26,966 nucleotides of DNA from a virus: positions 1 through 26,966 of the IMG/VR virus record IMGVR_UViG_3300028388_004314. One strand, written 5' to 3'. The notes under the pieces were generated by a model, which saw only the letters and a program-made list of their open reading frames with translations, was not told the origin of the DNA and did no database searches. The translations under genes and the position numbers were made by a program. Each line of letters begins with the position of its first letter. Within the stretch, counting starts at the first letter, position 1. Positions 947 to 25,572 of this stretch are shown here, piece after piece.

Positions 947-2734
947 CTATTCATCCTGGAAAGGATCACCTCCCTCGTCGCTGGAGCCATCGGGAATCCG
1001 TGGATCCCCACTATTCTCCGTTTCTGCCTGAACGAGCGCATCCAAGAACCCTTCCGGCAACTCCAACTGCCGTAGGGCCTCGATCATCGACTCGGTTGTG
1101 AAGGCGTTGGACGCTTGGGCCACCTTTTCCAGGACACGGAGAATGTGCATGGTCGACTTCTGCACCCGAATCTTTTCTGCGTGGATGTCTTCCACGCCCA
1201 TCCGGGCCATGACCGTTTCATCCGACAATACGCCAGCCTCACCAGCTTCCAGATCCAACCGTACCAGATCCGGGGAACGAGGACCGGGGTTGACGTGCTG
1301 ATCCACCGTAACGCGGATCACGTCGGTAAACCTACCTTCTTCATCTGCAATGTATTCTGCCATGCGCAACACCGTGGTCAGAATATCCCGCAACATGCCT
1401 TCTTCGGCCACACGGCGCTTGTCCAGATCCTTCGCGAACACAGCGCGTGCCTGCTCATAGGCGATCCCGCTGGCCTCCGCATTGGAGATACCCCCGAGGT
1501 GTCCTTGACCACACATGCGTAGGATCTTACGGCGGATGGCGTCTGCGGCGTGAATGTACGGTCCCGGGTCCACAGGATCGGCAATGAACACTTGCGGCGT
1601 CGTGTGTCCTTTGGCTTCCGCACGATCGTTGTACTCGGGCAAGCCGATCAACTCGGTAGTGGTGTTGGCTCCGAGCGTGCGCGGTTGCGGAACCACCTGC
1701 CATTCCCGACCCTCGTCGTCTCGCTCCAGGAACGCCCCGTCGCGGAGCGTATCTCCCGGTGTGTACGGAATTCGGATCCCTTGCGGCTTTGCGTTCATGG
1801 TATACCGCTCCCGGAACGCCGCCGTCTCCATGATCCGCGTAAGCAGGGAGCTCGCAAGGTTCAGCTGCCTCTGCACACGGACCACCGGGTCCGTAATCAG
1901 AATGCGGTTCGTCATCGCGGCAATCGTCAGCTTGCCCCCAAGGGGAACAACTGCCCGCTGGCTTCGGCGCTTCTCCGGATCTGCGTACACAACGCGAACG
2001 ATCGTATCCGCCTCCTCGTCCCGCTCCCGCTCCGGGTCGAGGTAGACCATTTCCACTTTCTCGTAGGAGTTGACCTTATCGCCCTCGTAGGCAACCTCCG
2101 TCGAGAAGAACAGCCCAACCTGATCCATTGTGGCCATGTCTGTGACCACAACACCATGTTCTGGATCGGGCGCGGACAGGTGAATGTAGTCCAGTGCCTC
2201 GGCCACGTCCGCCGCAATCCGAAACTGCACGGCCCCTTGCCCATCCTGCATAAGGAACCGGGACGGTACCCACACCCTCAAGGCGGCATAGCCCGCCCAC
2301 ACCCCTTGCCGTTGCCTGTCCATCACCATCTCGTGCACACGGCGCTTATCCCACCACGCACTCAGGAGGGCCTCCGCCTCGGCCATCGCGTTTCTGGTGG
2401 CCTCCGGAATCGGGCTCCCGTCCGCAGGGTCCACAAGCGGAGCGGTACCCACCTGAGGCTCTTCGAACGCATTCTCCACATTGGTGATCACCTCGCCAAC
2501 CGCGTCGTCCGGCGCAAACTGATCAGCAATCTTGCCGGAGCGCGTAGCCGTCCCCGGACCGACCCACTGCGACCCGTCTTGGTAGTGGTCGTGATCCTTA
2601 ACGTACCGTTCCACCACCGAGTAGTCCGCACGCAACTGCTTCTTCATTGCGTTCAGCGCATCGGAATACGTCCAACGCTCAAACGGCGCGATGGCCAGCG
2701 GTTCTCCTGGCCGAGCCTCAGAGATCGGGTGCAT
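947..2734 (-). CDS. Portal protein
   Basis: This 595-residue protein is the usual size for a portal, the dodecameric ring at the capsid vertex through which DNA is packaged and ejected. It lies directly downstream of the large terminase, whose last 17 bp it overlaps (start ATG at 2734, terminase stop at 2718). The N-terminal half is acidic and helical (for example DQFAPDDAVGEVITNVENAF), followed by a beta-rich wing region and a long helical C-terminal part with the segment GQGHLGGISNAEASGIAYEQ, which resembles the portal stem and clip regions. The C-terminus is acidic. I cannot assign a specific portal family by eye; the call depends on size and gene order as well as these features. Confidence 0.85.
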   Translation of the reverse strand: MHPISEARPGEPLAIAPFERWTYSDALNAMKKQLRADYSVVERYVKDHDHYQDGSQWVGPGTATRSGKIADQFAPDDAVGEVITNVENAFEEPQVGTAPLVDPADGSPIPEATRNAMAEAEALLSAWWDKRRVHEMVMDRQRQGVWAGYAALRVWVPSRFLMQDGQGAVQFRIAADVAEALDYIHLSAPDPEHGVVVTDMATMDQVGLFFSTEVAYEGDKVNSYEKVEMVYLDPERERDEEADTIVRVVYADPEKRRSQRAVVPLGGKLTIAAMTNRILITDPVVRVQRQLNLASSLLTRIMETAAFRERYTMNAKPQGIRIPYTPGDTLRDGAFLERDDEGREWQVVPQPRTLGANTTTELIGLPEYNDRAEAKGHTTPQVFIADPVDPGPYIHAADAIRRKILRMCGQGHLGGISNAEASGIAYEQARAVFAKDLDKRRVAEEGMLRDILTTVLRMAEYIADEEGRFTDVIRVTVDQHVNPGPRSPDLVRLDLEAGEAGVLSDETVMARMGVEDIHAEKIRVQKSTMHILRVLEKVAQASNAFTTESMIEALRQLELPEGFLDALVQAETENSGDPRIPDGSSDEGGDPFQDE

Positions 2735-3962
2735 AGGTTATTCCAGCGTAGGTGCCTGAAGGTTGCTTCCGGCGAGCACGGATCTTGGGCGTGTGCGCAT
2801 ACCGCAAGCTGTCCACCCCGTGATTGTGCTTGTCCACAAGTTTGTCGGTCACTTCTTCCGTCTTGGGATCGACCTTGTAAGAGTACAACTTAAACTCTTG
2901 AAGTAGATTCTTGCAATCCGGGTGCACAATGATCTTTTCAAAAGACCTCAACCACGCAATCCCGTCCTCCACGGACCCCGGCCACTTGAACACGGGTTGA
3001 ATCCGGAACATACCCTTCTTCTTGAGAAACGAAATCGTTTCTGGACGGCTCGAATCGGCCCGAATGACCTCCTGCGCGATCCGGGAGTGAAACGCCTTCG
3101 CCATCTCTCGCCGAATCATGTGGATATCGAGGTTGGGCCGGAACATCTCCTTGGATACGTACAGAAACCCGTTCGATCGGCCCTGATACGGCTTCGTCCA
3201 CGACTCTGTGGCCGCCGTAGGGTCGTTGAACCCGAAATCCAGCCCGTAAAACGGTCCGTAGAACCCTTCTTCCTTCGGGTCCAGAACTTGCACCGTGTAT
3301 TTGTGCTTCAGTACCTGCGCGTCCGTGTGCTTGCGCGGAAATCCGCCCCACACGTGCTCTGCCGCGTCCGGATCGACCCGGTACAGGTAATCTTTTTCCT
3401 CCCGAAGCGTTTCCGGGAACCACGGGTTGTCCTCCCACCCGATCTTCGTCACCCACGCATTGTGCGGCGGCTCCACAACGAACCGCTGATACGTGGGGTC
3501 GTCTTCCTCGGCCGGGTTGAACGTAATCCAGATTTCCGAGTATTCTTTACGGATCGTAGGAATGAGGATCTCCCACGAATCCTTGCTGACGGCTTCTGCC
3601 TCCTCCACCCAGCAGATATCGACACCCTCAAACGACTTGATTCGATTGCTGTTGTACCGAAGACCCTCGAAGATGAAGTTCGTCCCGGTGCCCACATGTT
3701 CGATGGTCGTTTTCGTGGTCCGGTACCCGGGAATCTTCAACCGCTGAATCATGTCCACAAGGAGTCGGTACACCGAGTCGCTGATGGACTTCTGGAACTC
3801 ACGCACGCACAGGATACGAAGCTTCTCCTGTGCCCCGCGAATGAGCAGTGCTTGCGCACACGTCCAGGAACGACCCGCACCACGTCCGCCGTACATCACT
3901 TTGTAGCGCACGGGTTGAAAGATGGGCTCTGCCCACTCCGGGAACCTTGCCTTAAGTGTCAC
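2718..3962 (-). CDS. terL: Terminase large subunit (ATPase-nuclease packaging motor)
   Basis: This 414-residue protein has the two-domain layout of Terminase_3-type large subunits, which drive DNA into the procapsid and cut it. The ATPase part shows a Walker A-like loop GGRGAGRS at residues 25-32, a Walker B segment VDICWVEEAE at 114-123, and the coupling motif ITFNP at 146-150. The RNase H-like nuclease shows LDFGFNDP at 241-248 (Asp242), an Asp near 303 and HNHGVDSLRY at 379-388 (Asp384), consistent with the acidic metal-binding triad. The usual Walker A lysine is an arginine (Arg31). The gene overlaps the small subunit by 4 bp (ATGA) and the portal by 17 bp, indicating translational coupling. 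Confidence 0.96.
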   Translation of the reverse strand: MTLKARFPEWAEPIFQPVRYKVMYGGRGAGRSWTCAQALLIRGAQEKLRILCVREFQKSISDSVYRLLVDMIQRLKIPGYRTTKTTIEHVGTGTNFIFEGLRYNSNRIKSFEGVDICWVEEAEAVSKDSWEILIPTIRKEYSEIWITFNPAEEDDPTYQRFVVEPPHNAWVTKIGWEDNPWFPETLREEKDYLYRVDPDAAEHVWGGFPRKHTDAQVLKHKYTVQVLDPKEEGFYGPFYGLDFGFNDPTAATESWTKPYQGRSNGFLYVSKEMFRPNLDIHMIRREMAKAFHSRIAQEVIRADSSRPETISFLKKKGMFRIQPVFKWPGSVEDGIAWLRSFEKIIVHPDCKNLLQEFKLYSYKVDPKTEEVTDKLVDKHNHGVDSLRYAHTPKIRARRKQPSGTYAGITYAPDL

Positions 3963-4531
3963 TCTTCGTCGTCTTCCTGGATCTTGGCACCCGGCTTCAC
4001 AAACTGAACCTCCAGCTTAACCGGGCCACCCGCGCTCGTGATGTCCACACTGTCCTGATACATGCCATGGACCCGCGCAAGCTGCTTCAGAGCGTCGTAT
4101 GCGTCCTGAAAGTCCACCTTGGGGTTTCCGTTGCTGTCCAGAGAGAACGACTTGATGAATTCCTTGTTCTTCAGAACGGCTTCTTCGTTGAGCTCCAAGG
4201 CGCCCGTGTGCGGGTTCTTCTGGAGCACGTCTCCCATCGTGTGCCGCGCGATCTTTGTGAACCGTTGAAGCACTTCCATCTTGGTCATGGAGTTCTCTTC
4301 CATGCGCATCTGGATGTAGTCCCGCATTTGCGGAAGCTTCAACTTCTTCGTGGCCAACTGGGAGACCGGACGTCCCAAGAATCCGGCGTACTTGTATGCA
4401 GCCGTGGCGTTGAATGGCTTTCCGGTAGCTTTCCCTGTCAGATATTCGTCTGCCATCAATCGCTGTTTTCCGGTGAGCCCGTATTCGTCTCGGGCCTTAC
4501 CAGAGTGCATATTTTCTGTAGGATTGCCCAT
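3959..4531 (-). CDS. terS: Terminase small subunit
   Basis: This 190-residue protein resembles the Terminase_2 family, the DNA-recognition subunit that binds the packaging site and recruits the large subunit. The N-terminal segment LTGKQRLMADEYLTGKATGK (residues 19-38), then FNATAAYKYAGF and a later RDYIQMRMEE, match the family's helix-turn-helix pattern (compare the common LTxKQxxFxxEYL...NATxAAxxAGY). A central helical stretch follows and the tail is acidic (EDDEE). It is the first gene of the head operon, with its own promoter about 40 bp upstream. The ribosome site before ATG 4531 is weak (GTGGTCAGAAC). An internal ATG at codon 8 is possible but has no better site. Confidence 0.9.
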   Translation of the reverse strand: MGNPTENMHSGKARDEYGLTGKQRLMADEYLTGKATGKPFNATAAYKYAGFLGRPVSQLATKKLKLPQMRDYIQMRMEENSMTKMEVLQRFTKIARHTMGDVLQKNPHTGALELNEEAVLKNKEFIKSFSLDSNGNPKVDFQDAYDALKQLARVHGMYQDSVDITSAGGPVKLEVQFVKPGAKIQEDDEE

Positions 4532-17137: not shown

Positions 17138-17352
17138 GTGACCTCAGGCATTTTTCGTTTGGTGTAGTTTTTTCTGCTCTTTGTTTTTTAGCCATTTTCT
17201 TTTTGTATGTTCAACTAGACAACATAAAAGTAGAAGCGCAAAAAACAAGATGCTCGACACGTTGGTTGAAGCTTGAACCGGATACGGCGTTCATGGCCGG
17301 AATATACCCGGATTGCAAACCGCAAGATTGGAAAGATCCTCTATGGCATTGA
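17134..17352 (+). CDS. Small single-TM protein, unknown function
   Basis: This 72-residue protein has one N-terminal transmembrane helix (about residues 9-27, FGVVFSALCFLAIFFLYVQL) and an outward C-terminal part with two Cys (RCSTRW and YPDCKPQDW). It could be a small spanin or lysis-regulator. ATG 17134 overlaps the exported protein by 4 bp and its end overlaps the amidase by 10 bp. Confidence 0.75.
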   Translation: MSDLRHFSFGVVFSALCFLAIFFLYVQLDNIKVEAQKTRCSTRWLKLEPDTAFMAGIYPDCKPQDWKDPLWH

Positions 17353-17807
17353 GATACAAAACAGATTTCCTTGTGGTGCACGGGGCATGGACAAGGCCCG
17401 ACATGGATATTGGCGTAGCAGAGATTGAGGATTGGCACAAGAAGCGCGGATTTGACATGATCGGGTACCATTTCGTTATTCGGCGGAATGGTGCATTGGA
17501 ACACGGCAGACCAATCGAGTTAGTTGGTGCTCATGTAAAGGGAATGAACTTTCGTTCTCTCGGCGTGTGTCTTGTGGGTGGGCGCCCGTCTATAAAAGAT
17601 CACTTGGGCGAGTCTTGGGCTGGCGTCTCAAAACACGCAGAGTGGGAATTCAACTATACGCAAGCGCAAATGGAAACACTAAAAGCGCTTCACGAATACC
17701 TTAGTGTGATTTATCCTAATTTGACTGTCCTTGGCCACAAGGATCACAGTGGTACGCGGAAGCTTTGCCCCGGATTTGACGTGAGACAGTATTTCTCCAG
17801 GAAGTAA
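17343..17807 (+). CDS. T7 lysozyme-like N-acetylmuramoyl-L-alanine amidase (endolysin)
   Basis: This 154-residue enzyme matches the Amidase_2 / T7 lysozyme layout almost end to end (T7 gp3.5 is about the same length). The zinc ligands appear as His13 (VVHGAWT), His132 (VLGHKDHSG) and Cys142 (KLCPGFD). Tyr42 in GYHFVIRRNG and Lys140 occupy the catalytic positions. It cuts the amide bond between MurNAc and the stem peptide at lysis. T7 lysozyme also restrains phage RNA polymerase; no such polymerase is in this window. ATG 17343 was chosen over an upstream frame because the ORF's homology starts there. Confidence 0.93.
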   Translation: MALRYKTDFLVVHGAWTRPDMDIGVAEIEDWHKKRGFDMIGYHFVIRRNGALEHGRPIELVGAHVKGMNFRSLGVCLVGGRPSIKDHLGESWAGVSKHAEWEFNYTQAQMETLKALHEYLSVIYPNLTVLGHKDHSGTRKLCPGFDVRQYFSRK

Positions 17808-17849
17808 TTGAATCTTGACGGTGCAGTGATCACCGACATAATGTGGGTA

Positions 17850-17889
17850 TTGTGGGTACTCATCATTTCGTCGCACTATAGGGGGCATC
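17850..17889 (+). promoter_or_regulatory. Promoter before the virion genes (with T7-promoter-like core)
   Basis: TTGTGG (17850-17855), 18-bp spacer, CACTAT (17874-17879), then AGGGGG and the ATG at 17890. The -35 box is the same as at several early promoters. The core CACTATAGGG (17874-17883) also equals the 3' part of the T7 RNA polymerase promoter, but the upstream half matches poorly (about 5 of 10). Depending on the start, the leader would be only about 5-10 nt, with GGGGG possibly serving as ribosome site. Confidence 0.5.
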
Positions 17890-18294
17890 ATGGCATCGTT
17901 CGTATTTCTGAAGGGCAAGGCGAAGTTCGCTGGCGGTAGCATCGATTGGGTCAACGACGACATCCGGGCACTGCCCGTGAATGCCGTCCCCAACATCGAC
18001 ACCGCCGAGTTCGTGTCCGACATCAGCGCCACGGAGATCGGCTCTTCGCGTGTGGCGCTCGCCGGAAAGGTGATCAACGAGGACGCGGCGGGAGACGAGG
18101 TCGAACTCGATGCCAACAACTTCACGCACACGGCAGTGAGCAGTGGGGACACGGCGGTCGGGTCTGTGCTGTTCAAGCAAGTGACGACCGACGCGGATTC
18201 CCCGGTGATCGCCTTCCTCGACTACACGGACACGCCCACCAACGGCGGCGACATCACGGTCACGCTCGCCGCCGAAGGCGCGATCAAGTTCTAA
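17890..18294 (+). CDS. Phage structural-type protein of about 130 aa
   Basis: This 134-residue beta-rich protein follows the pattern KGKAKFAGGSIDWVNDDIR then DTAEFVSDIS, ending NGGDITVTLAAEGAIKF. I recognise this layout (lysine-glycine start, a D-I-R/I segment, F-x-S-D-I, and a final G-G-D-I-T-V) from small proteins beside tail or fibre genes in many tailed phages; their exact place in the particle is not known to me. It starts the virion block downstream of the promoter at 17850. Confidence 0.72.
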   Translation: MASFVFLKGKAKFAGGSIDWVNDDIRALPVNAVPNIDTAEFVSDISATEIGSSRVALAGKVINEDAAGDEVELDANNFTHTAVSSGDTAVGSVLFKQVTTDADSPVIAFLDYTDTPTNGGDITVTLAAEGAIKF

Positions 18295-18307
18295 AGGAGA
18301 TGGCCCA

Positions 18308-18733
18308 ATGGCCAATGACCTGAAGATCGACGCGGATGCGGCAACCCTGATGATTCAGGCGCTGGCCGACCAATTCGACGCTGCGTCAACGAACAACACG
18401 CTCAAGATTTACAGCGTAGGATCTGGGATCCCCACGGATGCGGACACCGCGATTACGGACCAGACTCTCCTCGTCACCATCAACCTCCCCACCCCTGCGT
18501 TCGGGACGGCTTCCGCCGGGGCGGTCTCAAAGACGGGAACATGGAGCGGGACGGTTACGTCAGCCGGTGAGGCCGCGTTCTACCGTCTCGAAGACGACAC
18601 CGGCAACACGACCATTCAGGGCACTGTCGGACTCGACACGGGAACGTTTGACCTGGAGTTCAGCGATGTGACGTGGTCCGTGGACGGCACGGTAACAGTC
18701 GACACCTTCACTCTCACGATGCCGGAGCAGTGA
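18308..18733 (+). CDS. Phage structural-type protein of about 140 aa
   Basis: This 141-residue beta-rich protein starts with a helix (LMIQALADQFDAASTNNTLK, then IYSVGSG) and then shows LLVTINLPTPAFGTASAGAV, a typical hydrophobic-beta pattern, and later TVGLDTGTFDLEFSD. Similar proteins accompany the preceding family in many phages. AAAGGAG precedes ATG 18308. It is probably a virion or virion-assembly protein. Confidence 0.72.
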   Translation: MANDLKIDADAATLMIQALADQFDAASTNNTLKIYSVGSGIPTDADTAITDQTLLVTINLPTPAFGTASAGAVSKTGTWSGTVTSAGEAAFYRLEDDTGNTTIQGTVGLDTGTFDLEFSDVTWSVDGTVTVDTFTLTMPEQ

Positions 18734-19440: not shown

Positions 19441-21774
19441 ATGGCCACGCTTCCGACCCTTCTCTCGACCAGCAACAACACGATCACGGCAGTTGACACA
19501 ATCCGGTACAACTTCCCGGATGACATTGAGATAGTTCACACATTCTTCATTGAATCGACACCGGACGAATTCGATTCAATGGACACCCTGTCGTGGACGG
19601 CGGTCTATCGTGTAGACCCGGTAAACTATGCGGATGATGTCTACGGCTTGGAAGTCCGAATACTGACCAGTGATCAACTTACGGTTCTTGCCGGGGCTTC
19701 ATCAACGTTGGCCTCTTCGTGGACCACGATTGATTCCACCGTCAATAACACGACGGACGCAACGGCTGGCCCGACCTCCTTCGCCTACGTCAACACGACG
19801 GCCACGAAGGCTCAGTGGGACGAGGCATGGGTCGAGCTTCGCCAGACCTACACGAAGACGAGGGGTGGAGACGCCGCCAATATTGAAGTCAACTATGTTG
19901 CCTTCACCGGGACCTTCACCGCAGGCCCCTCGACTCCGACAAGTATCACCACCACGGAGGTAGCTGGTGATGTAGAAATAGGGTGGACGGACCCGGCAAC
20001 CTACGCGACGGCGACGGAGTGGACGGTAGAGCGGATAGACGGTGCGCTACCGACCGCCGGGACGCAAGTAAGCTCCGTTGCTGTATCTCCTACCACCGGA
20101 CTCCAAGGAAATGCATATGACCCGATAGAGTTGAGCATTTGGTGTGCGTATAACCTCGTCACCAATATCTTTGAGTTTGACCCTTCAGACGGGACGCAAC
20201 TTTCCTCGTTCGTCAGCACCACGAACGGGAGCAACTACGGCATTGTTGTCAATGGGTCCCTGCTCGCCATCCTTGTGTCCTCGGACGAGATTGCGGAGCA
20301 CACCAAAACCGGGACCCTCTCGGACACCCTCTCTACACCTACTTCCATCACATTGCCCCGTGGCATTACGCACGATGGAACCACCTATTGGATTACAGGA
20401 GTTGAAGCCAGCAGCGAAATTGTAAAGCTGGATCCCAGCGACACCACGGTGGCGCTTGTCAGACATGAAACTGACATTCCGTATCCTGGATTGGCGTGGT
20501 TCAATGGCCTCCTGTACGGGCTCCGCGAAGATGAATCTGTTGACGTTATCGAACCGGGCACCGGAACGGTGCTCGACACCTTCTCGCTCGGTGGAACCGT
20601 TGGGAACACCACGTTCGGACTCTCTATAGAGGGTGAGCGAGTTTGGGTCACGGATCAAACCAACGGAAGGCTCCGGAAATTCGAGTCAGGGGCGTTCGGG
20701 ACGGCTGACTCGACCTTCACCGGAATCACCAGCGAGCCCTACACCGACACAACCGTCTCGCCCTCCAGCACGTACACCTATCGTGTTCAGGCGACCGCAC
20801 CCAACAGGTCATCGGGCTGGAGTGGCTCGTCCGAGATTACAACGGGGGCCGGAGGAGAATCCTACACCGGAGACGGCTCCGGAACCCTCACCCCGGTCAC
20901 TTCGACAGCTACCGGAACCCTCTCTGCACCGGCCTACACTGGGACCGGCTCAGGAACGCTCTCCCCGGTCACCTCGACGGCCACCGGGACCCTCGCCTAT
21001 CCGACATGGACCGGGACCGGCTCAGGAACGCTCTCTCCGGCCACCGGGACTGCCTCGGGGACCTCTTCAGGTCCGACGTTCACCGGAAACGGCCAAGGAA
21101 CCCTCGCCCCGGCCACAGGAGCGGCCACGGGGACTTGGACTGTTCCGACCTACACAGGAACCGGGACTGCCACCCTCTCCCCGGTCACCTCTACGGCCAC
21201 CGGAACGATCGAGGCGGGTGCAGTCACGGTCACCCCTTCGGTCGCCTCCGAACCCGCAACGGCCCTCGACCCGACCGTCACGGCGGGGTCCGTCACCACC
21301 TTTCCATCGGTCACGCCCGAAGCGATGGTGGGCCTCGACGCGACCGTCGCGGCGGGAGCGGTTACGGTTACGGCTCCGGTCGCCTCCGAACTCGCCACCG
21401 CCCTCGACCCGACGGCCACAAGTGGTGCACCCACGGTCACCCCTCCGGTCGCCGCTGAACTTGCGACGGCCCTCGATGCGACGGCCACACCCGGTGCGGT
21501 CTCCACCACCCCAGCGGTCACTCCCGAAGCAATGGTGGGGTTAAACCCGACCGTCGCCCTTGGGTACGCGCTCACCGGGTATCGTTTCCGCAACGACGAC
21601 GGAAGCGAATCTACGGCCACATGGATCGCGGCAGAAGACGGCAATATCCAAGCCAATGTGGGCGACGAGGTGCGTATTCGCTTTCAGATCGACAACATCC
21701 CCGACGGAGCGCAAGTGACGATCCAGTATGCCGAAGACGACGGCACCTTGGATTGGCAGGATGTGACGACATAA
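19441..21774 (+). CDS. Large fibre-like virion protein with FN3, beta-propeller and repeat regions
   Basis: This 777-residue protein has no signal peptide. Residues 1-160 are beta-rich and unrecognised. Residues 165-215 look like the first half of a fibronectin type III domain, and 427-468 (SEPYTDTTVSPSSTYTYRVQ) like its second half. About 200 residues between them have propeller-like repeats (ASSEIVKLDPSD, GERVWVTDQTNGRLRKF). Residues 475-591 are five 24-residue units of the form YTGTGSGTLSPVTSTATGTL. Residues 593-707 are five 23-residue units of the form GAVTVTPxVAxExATALDPT. An Ig-like C-terminal domain ends the protein. It is probably part of a tail fibre or surface protein. The next gene uses the same 23-residue unit. 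Confidence 0.82.
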   Translation: MATLPTLLSTSNNTITAVDTIRYNFPDDIEIVHTFFIESTPDEFDSMDTLSWTAVYRVDPVNYADDVYGLEVRILTSDQLTVLAGASSTLASSWTTIDSTVNNTTDATAGPTSFAYVNTTATKAQWDEAWVELRQTYTKTRGGDAANIEVNYVAFTGTFTAGPSTPTSITTTEVAGDVEIGWTDPATYATATEWTVERIDGALPTAGTQVSSVAVSPTTGLQGNAYDPIELSIWCAYNLVTNIFEFDPSDGTQLSSFVSTTNGSNYGIVVNGSLLAILVSSDEIAEHTKTGTLSDTLSTPTSITLPRGITHDGTTYWITGVEASSEIVKLDPSDTTVALVRHETDIPYPGLAWFNGLLYGLREDESVDVIEPGTGTVLDTFSLGGTVGNTTFGLSIEGERVWVTDQTNGRLRKFESGAFGTADSTFTGITSEPYTDTTVSPSSTYTYRVQATAPNRSSGWSGSSEITTGAGGESYTGDGSGTLTPVTSTATGTLSAPAYTGTGSGTLSPVTSTATGTLAYPTWTGTGSGTLSPATGTASGTSSGPTFTGNGQGTLAPATGAATGTWTVPTYTGTGTATLSPVTSTATGTIEAGAVTVTPSVASEPATALDPTVTAGSVTTFPSVTPEAMVGLDATVAAGAVTVTAPVASELATALDPTATSGAPTVTPPVAAELATALDATATPGAVSTTPAVTPEAMVGLNPTVALGYALTGYRFRNDDGSESTATWIAAEDGNIQANVGDEVRIRFQIDNIPDGAQVTIQYAEDDGTLDWQDVTT

Positions 21775-21775
21775 G

Positions 21776-24700
21776 ATGGCGACTGAAACCCTCTACCCCG
21801 ACGCGATTGTCACGCAGACCGGGCTCACCGGGGCGGTCACGGATATTGACGAGGATCCGGGAAGCCCGGACGCATCCTGGCTGACCACGAACGCCTCCGG
21901 GAGTACGCTACGTGTGAGCTTCCCGACCCCTACAGGCTCTCCGAACACCGGGACCGGGCTCCAGACGTTCCGCGTTTGGCTTCGGAAGGATGCCGCTGGA
22001 GGTGGCGATCCCGACGTTTCTGCCGAACTCCGTGAAACCGGAGGCGGGACGTCGCTCCAGACGCTCGCCACGAACACGGTTATAACCTCCGCCACGGGAC
22101 AGCTTCTTTCGTGGACATGGGACGCGGCGAACCTCGGGACCACCGATGGCTCTGCCGTCGAGCTTCTCATAACGAGTGCAAAAGGAGGCGGAGGGCCGAA
22201 TGAGCGCAACGTAGAAGTCGGTGCGATTGCGTGGGACGTAGACTACGCTGCGGTTACGAATCAGAACGTCTCTCCAGGAGTGTCCGCCGGGGCGTTGCTC
22301 GCGCTCGACGTAACCCGCACGGCAGGAGCCGTATCCGTTGCCCCGACGGTCGCCGCCGAAACAATGATCGCGCTCGACGCCACCCGGACCATCGGGGCCG
22401 CATCCGTGTCGCCCCCTGTCACACCGGAGGCGATGCTTGCGAATGATCCGACGACCACACCGGGCACAGCGACACGGGCACCCCCGGTAGCCGCCGAAGC
22501 GATCATTGCGCTGGACGCGACGGCAACCCTTGTCACTTCCGCCTCTGCTCCAGTCGCGGCGGAAACCTTTACCGCACTCGACGCCACGGTCACGACGGGT
22601 GCGGTTTCTGTGTCGCCGGGGGTTGCGGCAGATGCCTTCACCGCGCTGGATGCCGCTAACGTCAACCTCGAAGACGCGGTTGAGTTGTTTGACTCGGCCA
22701 ACGTGGCGGAGGGTGGTGAAGACACCACCGCGCAAATGTCGGCACCGCCGGGGAAGACGACCGGAGACTTCACGGCGGGCCGTCTGGAGGACACGGACAA
22801 CCCCACCGACGCAATCACCTCCACGGGCGATCAGTACACGGAAGTTGAGTGGGCGGTTGTCTTCCGGGGACAGTCCAGCGCGAAGACGTACAAGTTCCGT
22901 GTCCTCGTAGACGGGCAACCTGCACCGACGGCGCTGGAGCCCACAGCAACGCTGTCGAGTGTCACGGAGGTTGCGGCAGATGTCGCCGCTGAGCCCATGG
23001 TGGCGAACGCGCCGACAGTGGCGGGCGCAGTCACGGTCAGTCCGGCGGTGTCTGTTGCGCTGCTCGTGGCGGTGGAGCCTTCTGTTGTCGGTTCTGAGGT
23101 TGTTACTCCCCCGGTCTCAGCGGAGCTCTTCACTGCGCAAGACGCGACAGTTTCGGCTGGACTCGTCACAGTTTCCCCGGCGGCGGCAAGCAGTACCGCG
23201 TCTGCCCTCGACGCTACCGTTTCCGCCGGGGCTGTGGCAGTTCTTCCGGGTGTTGCCCTCTCCCTCGCCACGGCATTGGATCCGACGGCAGAGGGACAGA
23301 CAGCTACCGTTGCCCCGGATGCGGCGCTTGCTCCGTTCACGGCACTGGATGCCGACACAACGGGTGCGTCGAATGTCGGCCCGGCGGTAGCCAACGCGCT
23401 GTTCACAGCGCAGGACCCGACGGTATCCGCAGGTGCGGCTTCTGTATCGCCGAACGTGTCCACTGCGTTGATCACAGCACTGGACGCGAGTGTTGATGGC
23501 GGGCTCAATGTTTCGACCACAGTGGCGTCGGAGCCGATGGTTGCTTCCGACCCGACCGTGGCCGGGGGCAGTGTCACGCGAAGCAGTGCCATTGCGGAAG
23601 CCCTCCACGTTGCGTTGGACCCGAGTGTTGCGGTGGGAGCGGCCACCACGGCGTCAGACACTGCCATCGCCCTGCTTTCGGCTCTTGACCAAAACGTAGC
23701 GCCGGGTTCAACAGAAGCAAGTGCGTCGGTCGCCCCGCACAATATGGTCGCCCTCGACGCGACCGTGGTGTCTTCCGGGTCTGTCGCACCGGACACGGCT
23801 ACAGAGCCCATGTCCGCGCAGGACGCCACGGCATCTTCGCAAGCTGTGTCCGTTTTGCCCGATACAGCGGCGACGGGGATGCTTGCCCTCGGCGCTACAG
23901 TCGGTGCTTCTATCTCCCTTGCGGCTGACGTATCGGCCTCCCTGCTCACGGCCAATGAACCCACCGCGCTCCCCGGTGCAGTCATCGTCGGTGCAGACGT
24001 GGAACTCATCACCAACGGTGACTTCGCCACCGGGGATACGACGGGGTGGACCCGTTGGGCTCAGATCACCGAATTTGCTTTTGAGGTAATCGGCGGGAGG
24101 TTGTACTTCCACCTCGACGGCGGAGCTTCAAACGTTAGCCCGGACCCACCCTTACCGATTGAAGCCGGGCAATCTTACTTGTTCAGTTTTGAGGCGGAGT
24201 TGCTGGAAGGTGGGATGCAGTGGTTCACCAGTGTAGACCTCTACATTGGCTCTTCGGTCGGTTCCAATGTTGGAGTCGTCCAGCAGTCTTTCGTCTACCG
24301 CGCCACCGCCGATAACACCAACCCTCGTTTCCGGGAAATTGGGGGTGCGGACGTAGCTCACGGGTACCTCGACAACGTCAGTGTCACGTTGTACCCGATT
24401 GCGGACGAACCTGTTACCGCGCTGGATGCAACGGTTGCGACGGGAGCGGCCACGGTATCGCCGGGGAATGCCCAAGCGACGCTCACTGCGCTAGATGCTA
24501 CGGTAACAGTAGGAGCAACTTCCGTAGCGCCGCCAACAGCGAGCGCGCTGATCACGACCCTCGACGCAACGGCGCTCCAGCAGGGTGAGGTCAGCCCGGA
24601 TACGGCAATTTCGTATCTGCGTGCCAACGAGCCAACGATCAGCTTGGGTGCGGCAACGGTTCAACCCTCTGTTGCACAAGCTCCCTGCACGGCACTAGAC

Positions 24701-25183
24701 GCAACGGTCGCAGTAAGCGGAGTAACTGTTGCCACCACTGTGGCCACAGAAATCTTCGTTGCGCCAGACACATCCGTTGCACCGGGATCGTTGAACCTTT
24801 CCGTAACGGTTGCTTCTGCGATCCTATCTGCACAAGACGCGACGGCTGTCCCGGTTGTATCTGTTGGCGCACTTACGGCGGGCGAACTGTTCGAAGTCCC
24901 TGCACCATCCGTTCTCGCAACGATCACGGTTTACCCGGATACAGCTGATGCTGTATTCTTCGCGCCACTTGCAGATACAGGCGCAGAAACTTACATCTTC
25001 ATTAACGGTATCCGCGTGTACAATGCTCCTTCCGGGGCACTGCGATCCTATGCGCGTACTGGGATGATCCGATTTAACGTAGATCCCGGAGGAACATTGC
25101 GCACACACGAACGCACGGGGGATATTCGTTTCAATGCCCACAGGACAGCGGACGTACAGATCAAATACGGGGGTGACGGATGA
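21776..25183 (+). CDS. Giant repetitive fibre protein with inserted beta and carbohydrate-binding-like domains
   Basis: This 1135-residue protein has an N-terminal domain (1-160) with a beta-sandwich pattern I recall from other phage and bacterial surface proteins (LYPDAIVTQTGLTGAVTDID near the start). Then come about 29 units of roughly 22-23 residues with the consensus GAxxVxPxVAxExxxALDATV. The run is interrupted by two inserts. The first, 297-392, carries DQYTEVEWAVVFRG and KTYKFRVLVDG. The second, about 742-875, begins LITNGDFATGDTTGWTRW and ends YLDNVSVTLYP, which resembles a CBM4/9-like jelly roll that binds sugar. The C-terminal 85 residues carry two related RTGMIRFN and RTGDIRFN segments. 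It probably adheres to the host surface. Confidence 0.83.
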   Translation: MATETLYPDAIVTQTGLTGAVTDIDEDPGSPDASWLTTNASGSTLRVSFPTPTGSPNTGTGLQTFRVWLRKDAAGGGDPDVSAELRETGGGTSLQTLATNTVITSATGQLLSWTWDAANLGTTDGSAVELLITSAKGGGGPNERNVEVGAIAWDVDYAAVTNQNVSPGVSAGALLALDVTRTAGAVSVAPTVAAETMIALDATRTIGAASVSPPVTPEAMLANDPTTTPGTATRAPPVAAEAIIALDATATLVTSASAPVAAETFTALDATVTTGAVSVSPGVAADAFTALDAANVNLEDAVELFDSANVAEGGEDTTAQMSAPPGKTTGDFTAGRLEDTDNPTDAITSTGDQYTEVEWAVVFRGQSSAKTYKFRVLVDGQPAPTALEPTATLSSVTEVAADVAAEPMVANAPTVAGAVTVSPAVSVALLVAVEPSVVGSEVVTPPVSAELFTAQDATVSAGLVTVSPAAASSTASALDATVSAGAVAVLPGVALSLATALDPTAEGQTATVAPDAALAPFTALDADTTGASNVGPAVANALFTAQDPTVSAGAASVSPNVSTALITALDASVDGGLNVSTTVASEPMVASDPTVAGGSVTRSSAIAEALHVALDPSVAVGAATTASDTAIALLSALDQNVAPGSTEASASVAPHNMVALDATVVSSGSVAPDTATEPMSAQDATASSQAVSVLPDTAATGMLALGATVGASISLAADVSASLLTANEPTALPGAVIVGADVELITNGDFATGDTTGWTRWAQITEFAFEVIGGRLYFHLDGGASNVSPDPPLPIEAGQSYLFSFEAELLEGGMQWFTSVDLYIGSSVGSNVGVVQQSFVYRATADNTNPRFREIGGADVAHGYLDNVSVTLYPIADEPVTALDATVATGAATVSPGNAQATLTALDATVTVGATSVAPPTASALITTLDATALQQGEVSPDTAISYLRANEPTISLGAATVQPSVAQAPCTALDATVAVSGVTVATTVATEIFVAPDTSVAPGSLNLSVTVASAILSAQDATAVPVVSVGALTAGELFEVPAPSVLATITVYPDTADAVFFAPLADTGAETYIFINGIRVYNAPSGALRSYARTGMIRFNVDPGGTLRTHERTGDIRFNAHRTADVQIKYGGDG

Positions 25184-25572
25184 TCGAGACAAGAATTAAT
25201 CCGGAACAGGTAAGGATCATTGTTGGACGCGGCACTACGATTCGGTTTGCAGTGTCCATCAAAGACGAGACGGAAGGACCCATCGATGTACAGGCAGCTA
25301 ATGATCCCGTAAGGCTACACATGGCTTCTCGTGACGGGAAGTATAGCGCCGTCGTAGACGGGACCTACGCCATCACAGACAATGCCGACGGTTCATGGGT
25401 AGACTTTGTTGTAGACCATGATCTGTTTAGCATGGATGAAGATTGGGACGAAGATGTGATGGTCTTTTTTGCCGTGCGCCATGAAGATACTTCTGCGCTT
25501 GAAGAATACGTCAACTACCGTGGCGTTCTGCTTTTCGAGGGAGATCCCAGCAGCCCGGTAGCGACTCCTTAA
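25180..25572 (+). CDS. Small structural protein, beta-sandwich type
   Basis: This 130-residue acidic protein (INPEQVRIIVGRGTTIRFAV near the start) is predicted to be beta-rich. It is somewhat like the N-terminal Ig-like domains of baseplate and fibre-associated proteins, where a short I-x-x-G-x-T-x-x-F start recurs. It overlaps the giant fibre gene by 4 bp (ATGA), so the two are probably made together. It may be a chaperone or a fibre attachment piece. Confidence 0.72.
   Translation: MIETRINPEQVRIIVGRGTTIRFAVSIKDETEGPIDVQAANDPVRLHMASRDGKYSAVVDGTYAITDNADGSWVDFVVDHDLFSMDEDWDEDVMVFFAVRHEDTSALEEYVNYRGVLLFEGDPSSPVATP

Follow-up and report, generated by a model that had tools for sequence, protein, structure and literature searches.

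The window, meaning the whole stretch of DNA analysed here, comprises the 26,966 bases of an IMG/VR virus record and carries two large neighbouring genes on its plus strand, hereafter referred to as A and B. A preliminary description of this sequence had placed the two genes 1 bp apart, and both open reading frames were recovered exactly as described there. The features of the two genes and of the surrounding region are listed below.

947-2734, minus strand: portal-like protein (identified by eye)
2718-4531, minus strand: terminase genes
17313-18733, plus strand: upstream cassette of an amidase, a phrog_644 protein and a phrog_3758 virion structural protein
19441-21774, plus strand: gene A, 777 aa, with 24- and then 23-residue repeats and, at its extreme C-terminus, the N-terminal half (N-half) of a predicted split domain
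19441-20838, plus strand: A residues 1-466, N-terminal region
20848-21213, plus strand: A residues 470-591, about five 24-residue repeats of the YTGTGSGTLSPVTSTATGTL type
21214-21558, plus strand: A residues 592-706, five 23-residue units (GAVTVTPSVASEPATALDPTV)
21571-21771, plus strand: A residues 711-777, N-half (YRFRNDDGSESTATW...) of the predicted split Ig-like domain, running up to the stop codon
21772-21778, plus strand: A/B junction TAA-G-ATG, with 1 bp between the genes, where the cut in the domain falls
21776-25183, plus strand: gene B, 1135 aa
21776-22249, plus strand: B residues 1-158, N-terminal domain
22253-22663, plus strand: B residues 160-296, repeat block 1, about six 22/23-residue units
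22664-22954, plus strand: B residues 297-393, C-terminal half (C-half; FDSANVAEGGEDTTAQM...YTEVEW...) of the predicted split Ig-like domain
22955-23989, plus strand: B residues 394-738, repeat block 2, about sixteen 22/23-residue units
23996-24403, plus strand: B residues 741-876, insert weakly resembling CBM_4_9, below the Pfam cut-off
24404-24955, plus strand: B residues 877-1060, repeat block 3, about eight 22/23-residue units
24956-25180, plus strand: B residues 1061-1135, non-repeat C-terminus lacking an N-half
25180-25572, plus strand: small gene adjoining B, 130 aa (phrog_1084 type by eye only)

The plus-strand genes are ordered amidase, phrog_644, phrog_3758, a 140-aa gene, A, B, the 130-aa gene, a Sak4-like annealing protein and SSB, and a primase gene is also present on the minus strand. 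A and B adjoin the virion-protein gene (phrog_3758), which supports in part their earlier reading as fibre genes. In mycobacteriophages, the phrog_644 protein adjoins a minor tail protein with short repeats, close to the lysins, and the window shares this phrog_644 and lysin setting with the phrog_8501 minor tail proteins. Comparison of the window with L065-L067 and L069-L076 showed that mycobacteriophages conserve the position of phrog_644 beside lysins and minor tail proteins that bear repeats. Pseudomonas phage Rollin (L069) has a phrog_3758-type neighbour in common with the window, after which two large genes lie side by side. Small proteins of the phrog_1084 type were also found near the fibre genes at two other IMG/VR loci (L149 and L032).

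Pfam and PHROG searches with A and B, including the A 1-466 region, returned only one weak sub-threshold match, of CBM_4_9 to B residues 743-813 (15.1 bits, E 0.03; the Pfam gathering score of 25.9 was not reached). By eye, A 1-466 appears to comprise a putative beta-sandwich domain followed by a putative FN3-like domain with a propeller-like insert. The repeat array of B is broken by two non-repeat inserts (residues ~297-393 and ~741-876), which the preliminary description had missed. The second of these begins ITNGDFATGDTTGWTRW and may serve the fibre as a sugar-binding module. The N-terminal domain of B (residues 1-158) is homologous to the starts of the third and fourth genes of the four-gene chain of L149 (38-39% identity).

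The repeat shared by A and B is real. Autocorrelation gave period-23 peaks over residues 591-720 of A and 160-1060 of B, the latter including 22-residue variants, and a separate 24-residue period over A 471-592. Anchor spacing put the number of units at five in A and about 30 in B, against the five and about 29 counted previously, and a PSSM built from the units placed five in A and 17 full-length gapless units in B above the 95% shuffle threshold. Chains of units scored far above composition-preserving shuffles (z = 38 for A and 67 for B); these PSSM and chain scores are self-trained and therefore show only regularity. As had been stated, aromatic and charged residues are scarce in the units. 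Mean identity between A and B units (45% aa, 52% nt) was similar to that among B units (44%, 50%). The 23-residue repeats would be interchangeable shaft units common to the joined genes of one genome. A recent tandem duplication of A into B is not supported, given the low DNA identity of the units. The 24-residue repeats of A (YTGTGSGTLSPVTSTATGTL, window 20848-21213) resemble the phage repeats GALAPTIGSIAGSA (L009) and GALTAQDATIAGTA (L082). They look like another type of repeat, so A would carry two repeat classes in series.

The repeat had also not been recognised as a described phage fibre repeat. It has no Pfam entry, which agrees with that view, but it is not isolated. A scan of IMG/VR for its spacing pattern yielded proteins following the same rule at three loci (L032, L056 and L017), one of which (L032; 2814-7140, minus strand) has two adjacent genes both bearing the window repeat. 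At this same locus, the end of the first gene appears by eye to start a beta-sandwich domain, for which an insert in the second gene could be the remainder. This may be a split domain of another kind, but neither BLAST nor phmmer supported it. The phrog_8501 profile ("minor tail protein") matches L032, L056 and L118, with no match in the window up to an E-value of 10. In hhalign comparisons of two-unit windows, with column-permuted profiles as controls, the window repeat matched its IMG/VR relatives (97% probability, score 48; control maximum 10.3), and these relatives matched the mycobacteriophage units (score 25.2; control maximum 10.9). The direct comparison of the window repeat with the mycobacteriophage units was not significant, the score of 16.7 lying below the control maximum of 22.

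The mycobacteriophage minor tail proteins of phrog_8501 and phrog_13352 (Ryadel gp65, Brujita gp24, EniyanLRS gp42 and phiT46-1 gp23) are therefore reached from the window repeat through L032 and L118, not directly. They resemble the window in the adjacent phrog_644 protein and the nearby lysins and, apparently, in their 22/23-residue units with the rule G-x-V-x-V-x-P...P-T-V; they differ from it in having few units in a single gene, in which no split domain was seen. Given the IMG/VR relatives and the indirect link to phrog_8501, the window repeat joins a diverse class that has already been seen; this is a class of 18-24-residue phage fibre repeats with no Pfam entry. Single-protein searches of IMG/VR returned no close relatives of A or B. 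With tblastn against cultured phages (50,697 records for A and B), there was no match to A, B, L032, L017, the whole domain or L109, a result in which repeat masking may hide hits. The pattern scan of genome contigs gave chance matches only, and no solved structure was matched by sequence. In L099 (4700-7069), Pfam Motilin_assoc matches gene 2 above the cut-off (24.7 vs 22 bits); this match is probably spurious and due to a repeat.

When the last 73 residues of A were used as a query, they retrieved IMG/VR proteins in which FRNDDGSESTATW opens a domain of about 165 residues. An HMM of 170 positions was built from four unsplit domains, with the window rows left out. It matched A 711-769 at model positions 4-68 (48.8 bits) and B 299-383 at positions 76-155 (27.0 bits); the corresponding E-values come from a database of three sequences, so these bit scores are the useful figures. 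A stops at about model position 70 and B resumes at about 74, with practically neither overlap nor gap, and the window thus holds both halves at complementary model positions with the cut near 70. These alignments show the last 67 residues of A and the first insert of B to correspond, at the level of sequence profiles, to the two halves of one predicted domain. A was matched by eight of nine related records, nearly always at residues 711-777, and the C-half of B is 43.8% identical to that of L084. Neither half matches Pfam above the cut-off, the domain is absent from the cultured phages in the collection searched, and the literature, which was incompletely covered, yielded no description of an Ig-like domain split between phage fibre genes.

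The split recurs in other phages. A profile scan of IMG/VR identified 57 loci with the domain. After the removal of repeat contigs, the loci with the domain in one open reading frame comprised 16 with the whole domain and five with a nested insert of 129-215 aa. At a further 16 non-redundant loci, the N-half lay at the end of a gene, with no more than 22 residues after it, and the C-half in a downstream gene. Four loci had at first shown an N-half only, because the stretch first examined was too short; a search of the whole contigs found the C-half for all four, bringing the total to 20. Pairwise identity among these 20 contigs stays below 45% across most of the N-half gene (one short gene excepted), and at least 18 of them are cut at the same point as the window. 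In 18 junctions, the N-half ends at model positions 63-73, nearly always a few residues from the stop codon, and the C-half starts at 51-75; the wider profile used here includes the window and split rows, so these positions are partly fitted. In L084, a single chain contains both halves, separated by an insert of about 200-225 residues at the cut point of the window. The halves do not adjoin in about half of the loci, where a gap or a further gene lies between them (a gene in L118, L111 and L102); intervening genes of this kind cannot be put down to a stray stop codon or a sequencing error. A sequencing error or broken gene was also rejected for the window because B has a start domain of its own and the split is present in 20 contigs. 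Where the tail is long enough, 18-24-residue repeats follow the C-half or the whole domain in most loci.

There is a second site of cutting or insertion near model positions 112-119 (L110, L115 and L116), where the domain can be in three pieces. Cuts at about 112-119 fall across neighbouring genes in L152 (4254-7545; L110) and L115 (4489-6378), and L152 carries a relay over three open reading frames. In G023, the contig of L116 (19207-22703), pieces 2-73 and 65-119 are in one open reading frame and piece 119-165 is in another. In L087 (5401-7242), a propeller-like stretch was seen by eye, apparently inside the Ig-like domain after the first half. In L086 (1938-6123), two genes each end in an N-half and no C-half lies in the stretch covered, which extends 3 kb behind one of them; this contig ends soon afterwards.

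The most extended case is L149 (IMGVR_UViG_3300010412_000044), in which four consecutive genes with touching ends contain three split junctions. The first gene has an N-half at its end, the second and third each have an internal C-half and a terminal N-half, and the fourth has a C-half only. Genes 2-4 share a repeat of their own, unlike that of the window. In L145, the second gene has the same order as B (N-terminal domain, repeats, C-half, repeats). These uncultured IMG/VR phages (L145/L150 and L149), known from metagenomic records, are like the window in having the split domain at adjacent genes and unlike it in the sequence of their repeats and, for L149, in the chaining of four genes. The split domain therefore recurs, whereas the repeat varies between genomes.

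This bears on the original reading of the locus, in which the shared repeat would bundle the two proteins side by side in a beta shaft, or would reflect duplication only. The A and B units do form one population, and with five units ahead of the half-domain in A and about six ahead of that in B, the arrays could run in register. However, other phages with the split domain have different repeats or repeats in one gene only, which argues against the repeat as the constant link. Nor was the long thin beta shaft established: the AlphaFold model of the repeat (131 residues, 16 in-register rows) has two short strands per unit but no confident fold (pLDDT 44.5, modelled as a single chain of what is possibly an obligate trimer), and it found no fold match with Foldseek. 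The units appear interchangeable, but this reading had missed the more specific link through the split Ig-like domain, and we consider it distinctly unlikely.

The fold of the domain was predicted with AlphaFold2 for the unsplit domain of L083, a contiguous homologue (55 rows; pLDDT 91.4, pTM 0.88). The model has strands at residues 2-9, 34-42 and 53-59 before the cut and at 124-133, 143-150 and 165-169 after it. The best Foldseek matches were to integrin, RhoGDI and Ig V domains (150-190 columns, E ~0.01, TM ~0.4), each individually weak; weak matches also included the pilin FimA and a pilus tip adhesin-chaperone complex, and BFVD gave weak matches only. The prediction shows the unsplit domain as one compact beta domain, most like the Ig-like sandwiches. 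As an Ig-like fold pairs strands from both halves, the separate halves should be incomplete on their own.

Alternatively, the two halves might be small independent domains that often lie side by side, with the gene boundary falling between them and no need for A to bind B through the halves. They are indeed separable in sequence, often by hundreds of residues, and many genes stably carry the N-half by itself at their C-terminus. Nevertheless, AlphaFold folds both halves as one unit, and the Ig-like matches cover both of them; in such a fold, strands of one half would pair with those of the other. A terminal N-half is also accompanied by a downstream C-half in almost every case, and the cut falls repeatedly at one loop. 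Independent domains are therefore unlikely.

Across the 18 junctions, the distances of paired halves are correlated (r = 0.64, reached in none of 5000 permutations). The correlation shows co-inheritance of the halves and is compatible with contact between them without proving it; Rosetta-stone logic and the correlated distances would also follow from simple co-inheritance. The dN/dS analysis of L139-L142 was uninformative, as there were zero changes in the halves. The split could also be a neutral by-product, with the loop acting as a hot spot of insertion or recombination for swaps of tail modules, an accidental stop and start, and the half-domain of A a tolerated remnant. Nested inserts at the loop of the window within one open reading frame (L084, L109 and L123) and the second insertion site near positions 112-119 are in keeping with such a hot spot. 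By contrast, both halves retain conserved residues across 20 lineages, the distances of partner halves co-vary, and the four-gene relay of L149 is hard to call an accident. We regard this explanation as very unlikely.

Taken together, the sequence comparisons and the predicted fold suggest, with a probability of about 0.7, that A and B follow one another as chains of the same phage fibre and that an Ig-like node, completed in trans, joins them. A and B would be translated together, and the last strands of A and the internal strands of B would fold in trans to form the node, which would anchor A by its end to a point about 300 residues along B. The N-terminal domain and first repeat block of B would then form an arm, and its later repeats, CBM-like insert and C-terminus would continue the shaft outward. 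B appears to be the last chain, as its C-terminus carries no N-half. The gene pair may have arisen by fission, or by the reverse process of fusion, at an insertion-prone loop of the domain.

Two known systems may be regarded as analogues of A and B, and we claim membership of neither. In the donor-strand complementation of chaperone-usher pili, the Ig-like fold of one subunit is incomplete and the subunit that follows it supplies the missing part, with a dedicated chaperone and usher and a single donor strand. A and B differ in that each chain would contribute about half of the sandwich, that is, more than one strand, and in that the halves are C-terminal and internal. LtfA and LtfB of the T5-like phage DT57C are, in the available portions of the published accounts, two separately encoded proteins of a branched fibre, the second held to the virion via the first, and these portions describe no split domain (PMC4728585, PMC10713586). 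No sequence relation of A and B to LtfA and LtfB was found by tblastn (50,697 phage records).

More generally, the fibre proteins of many uncultured phages might be ordered by a split-Ig relay of up to four genes per contig, with repeats and receptor-binding modules freely exchanged, a generalisation to which we would give even odds. In such a relay, the end of each fibre protein would be a first half-domain and the second half would lie inside the next protein, so that the proteins would join in a fixed order. Fibre proteins decide host binding, and the ordered joining of several of them is poorly known in uncultured phages. The split domain would explain fibre gene boundaries that fall inside a domain and are overlooked by automatic annotation, and its recurrence would provide a sequence signature predicting which neighbouring genes make one fibre. 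It would also offer a test of ordered fibre assembly and supply natural pairs of proteins that complete each other.
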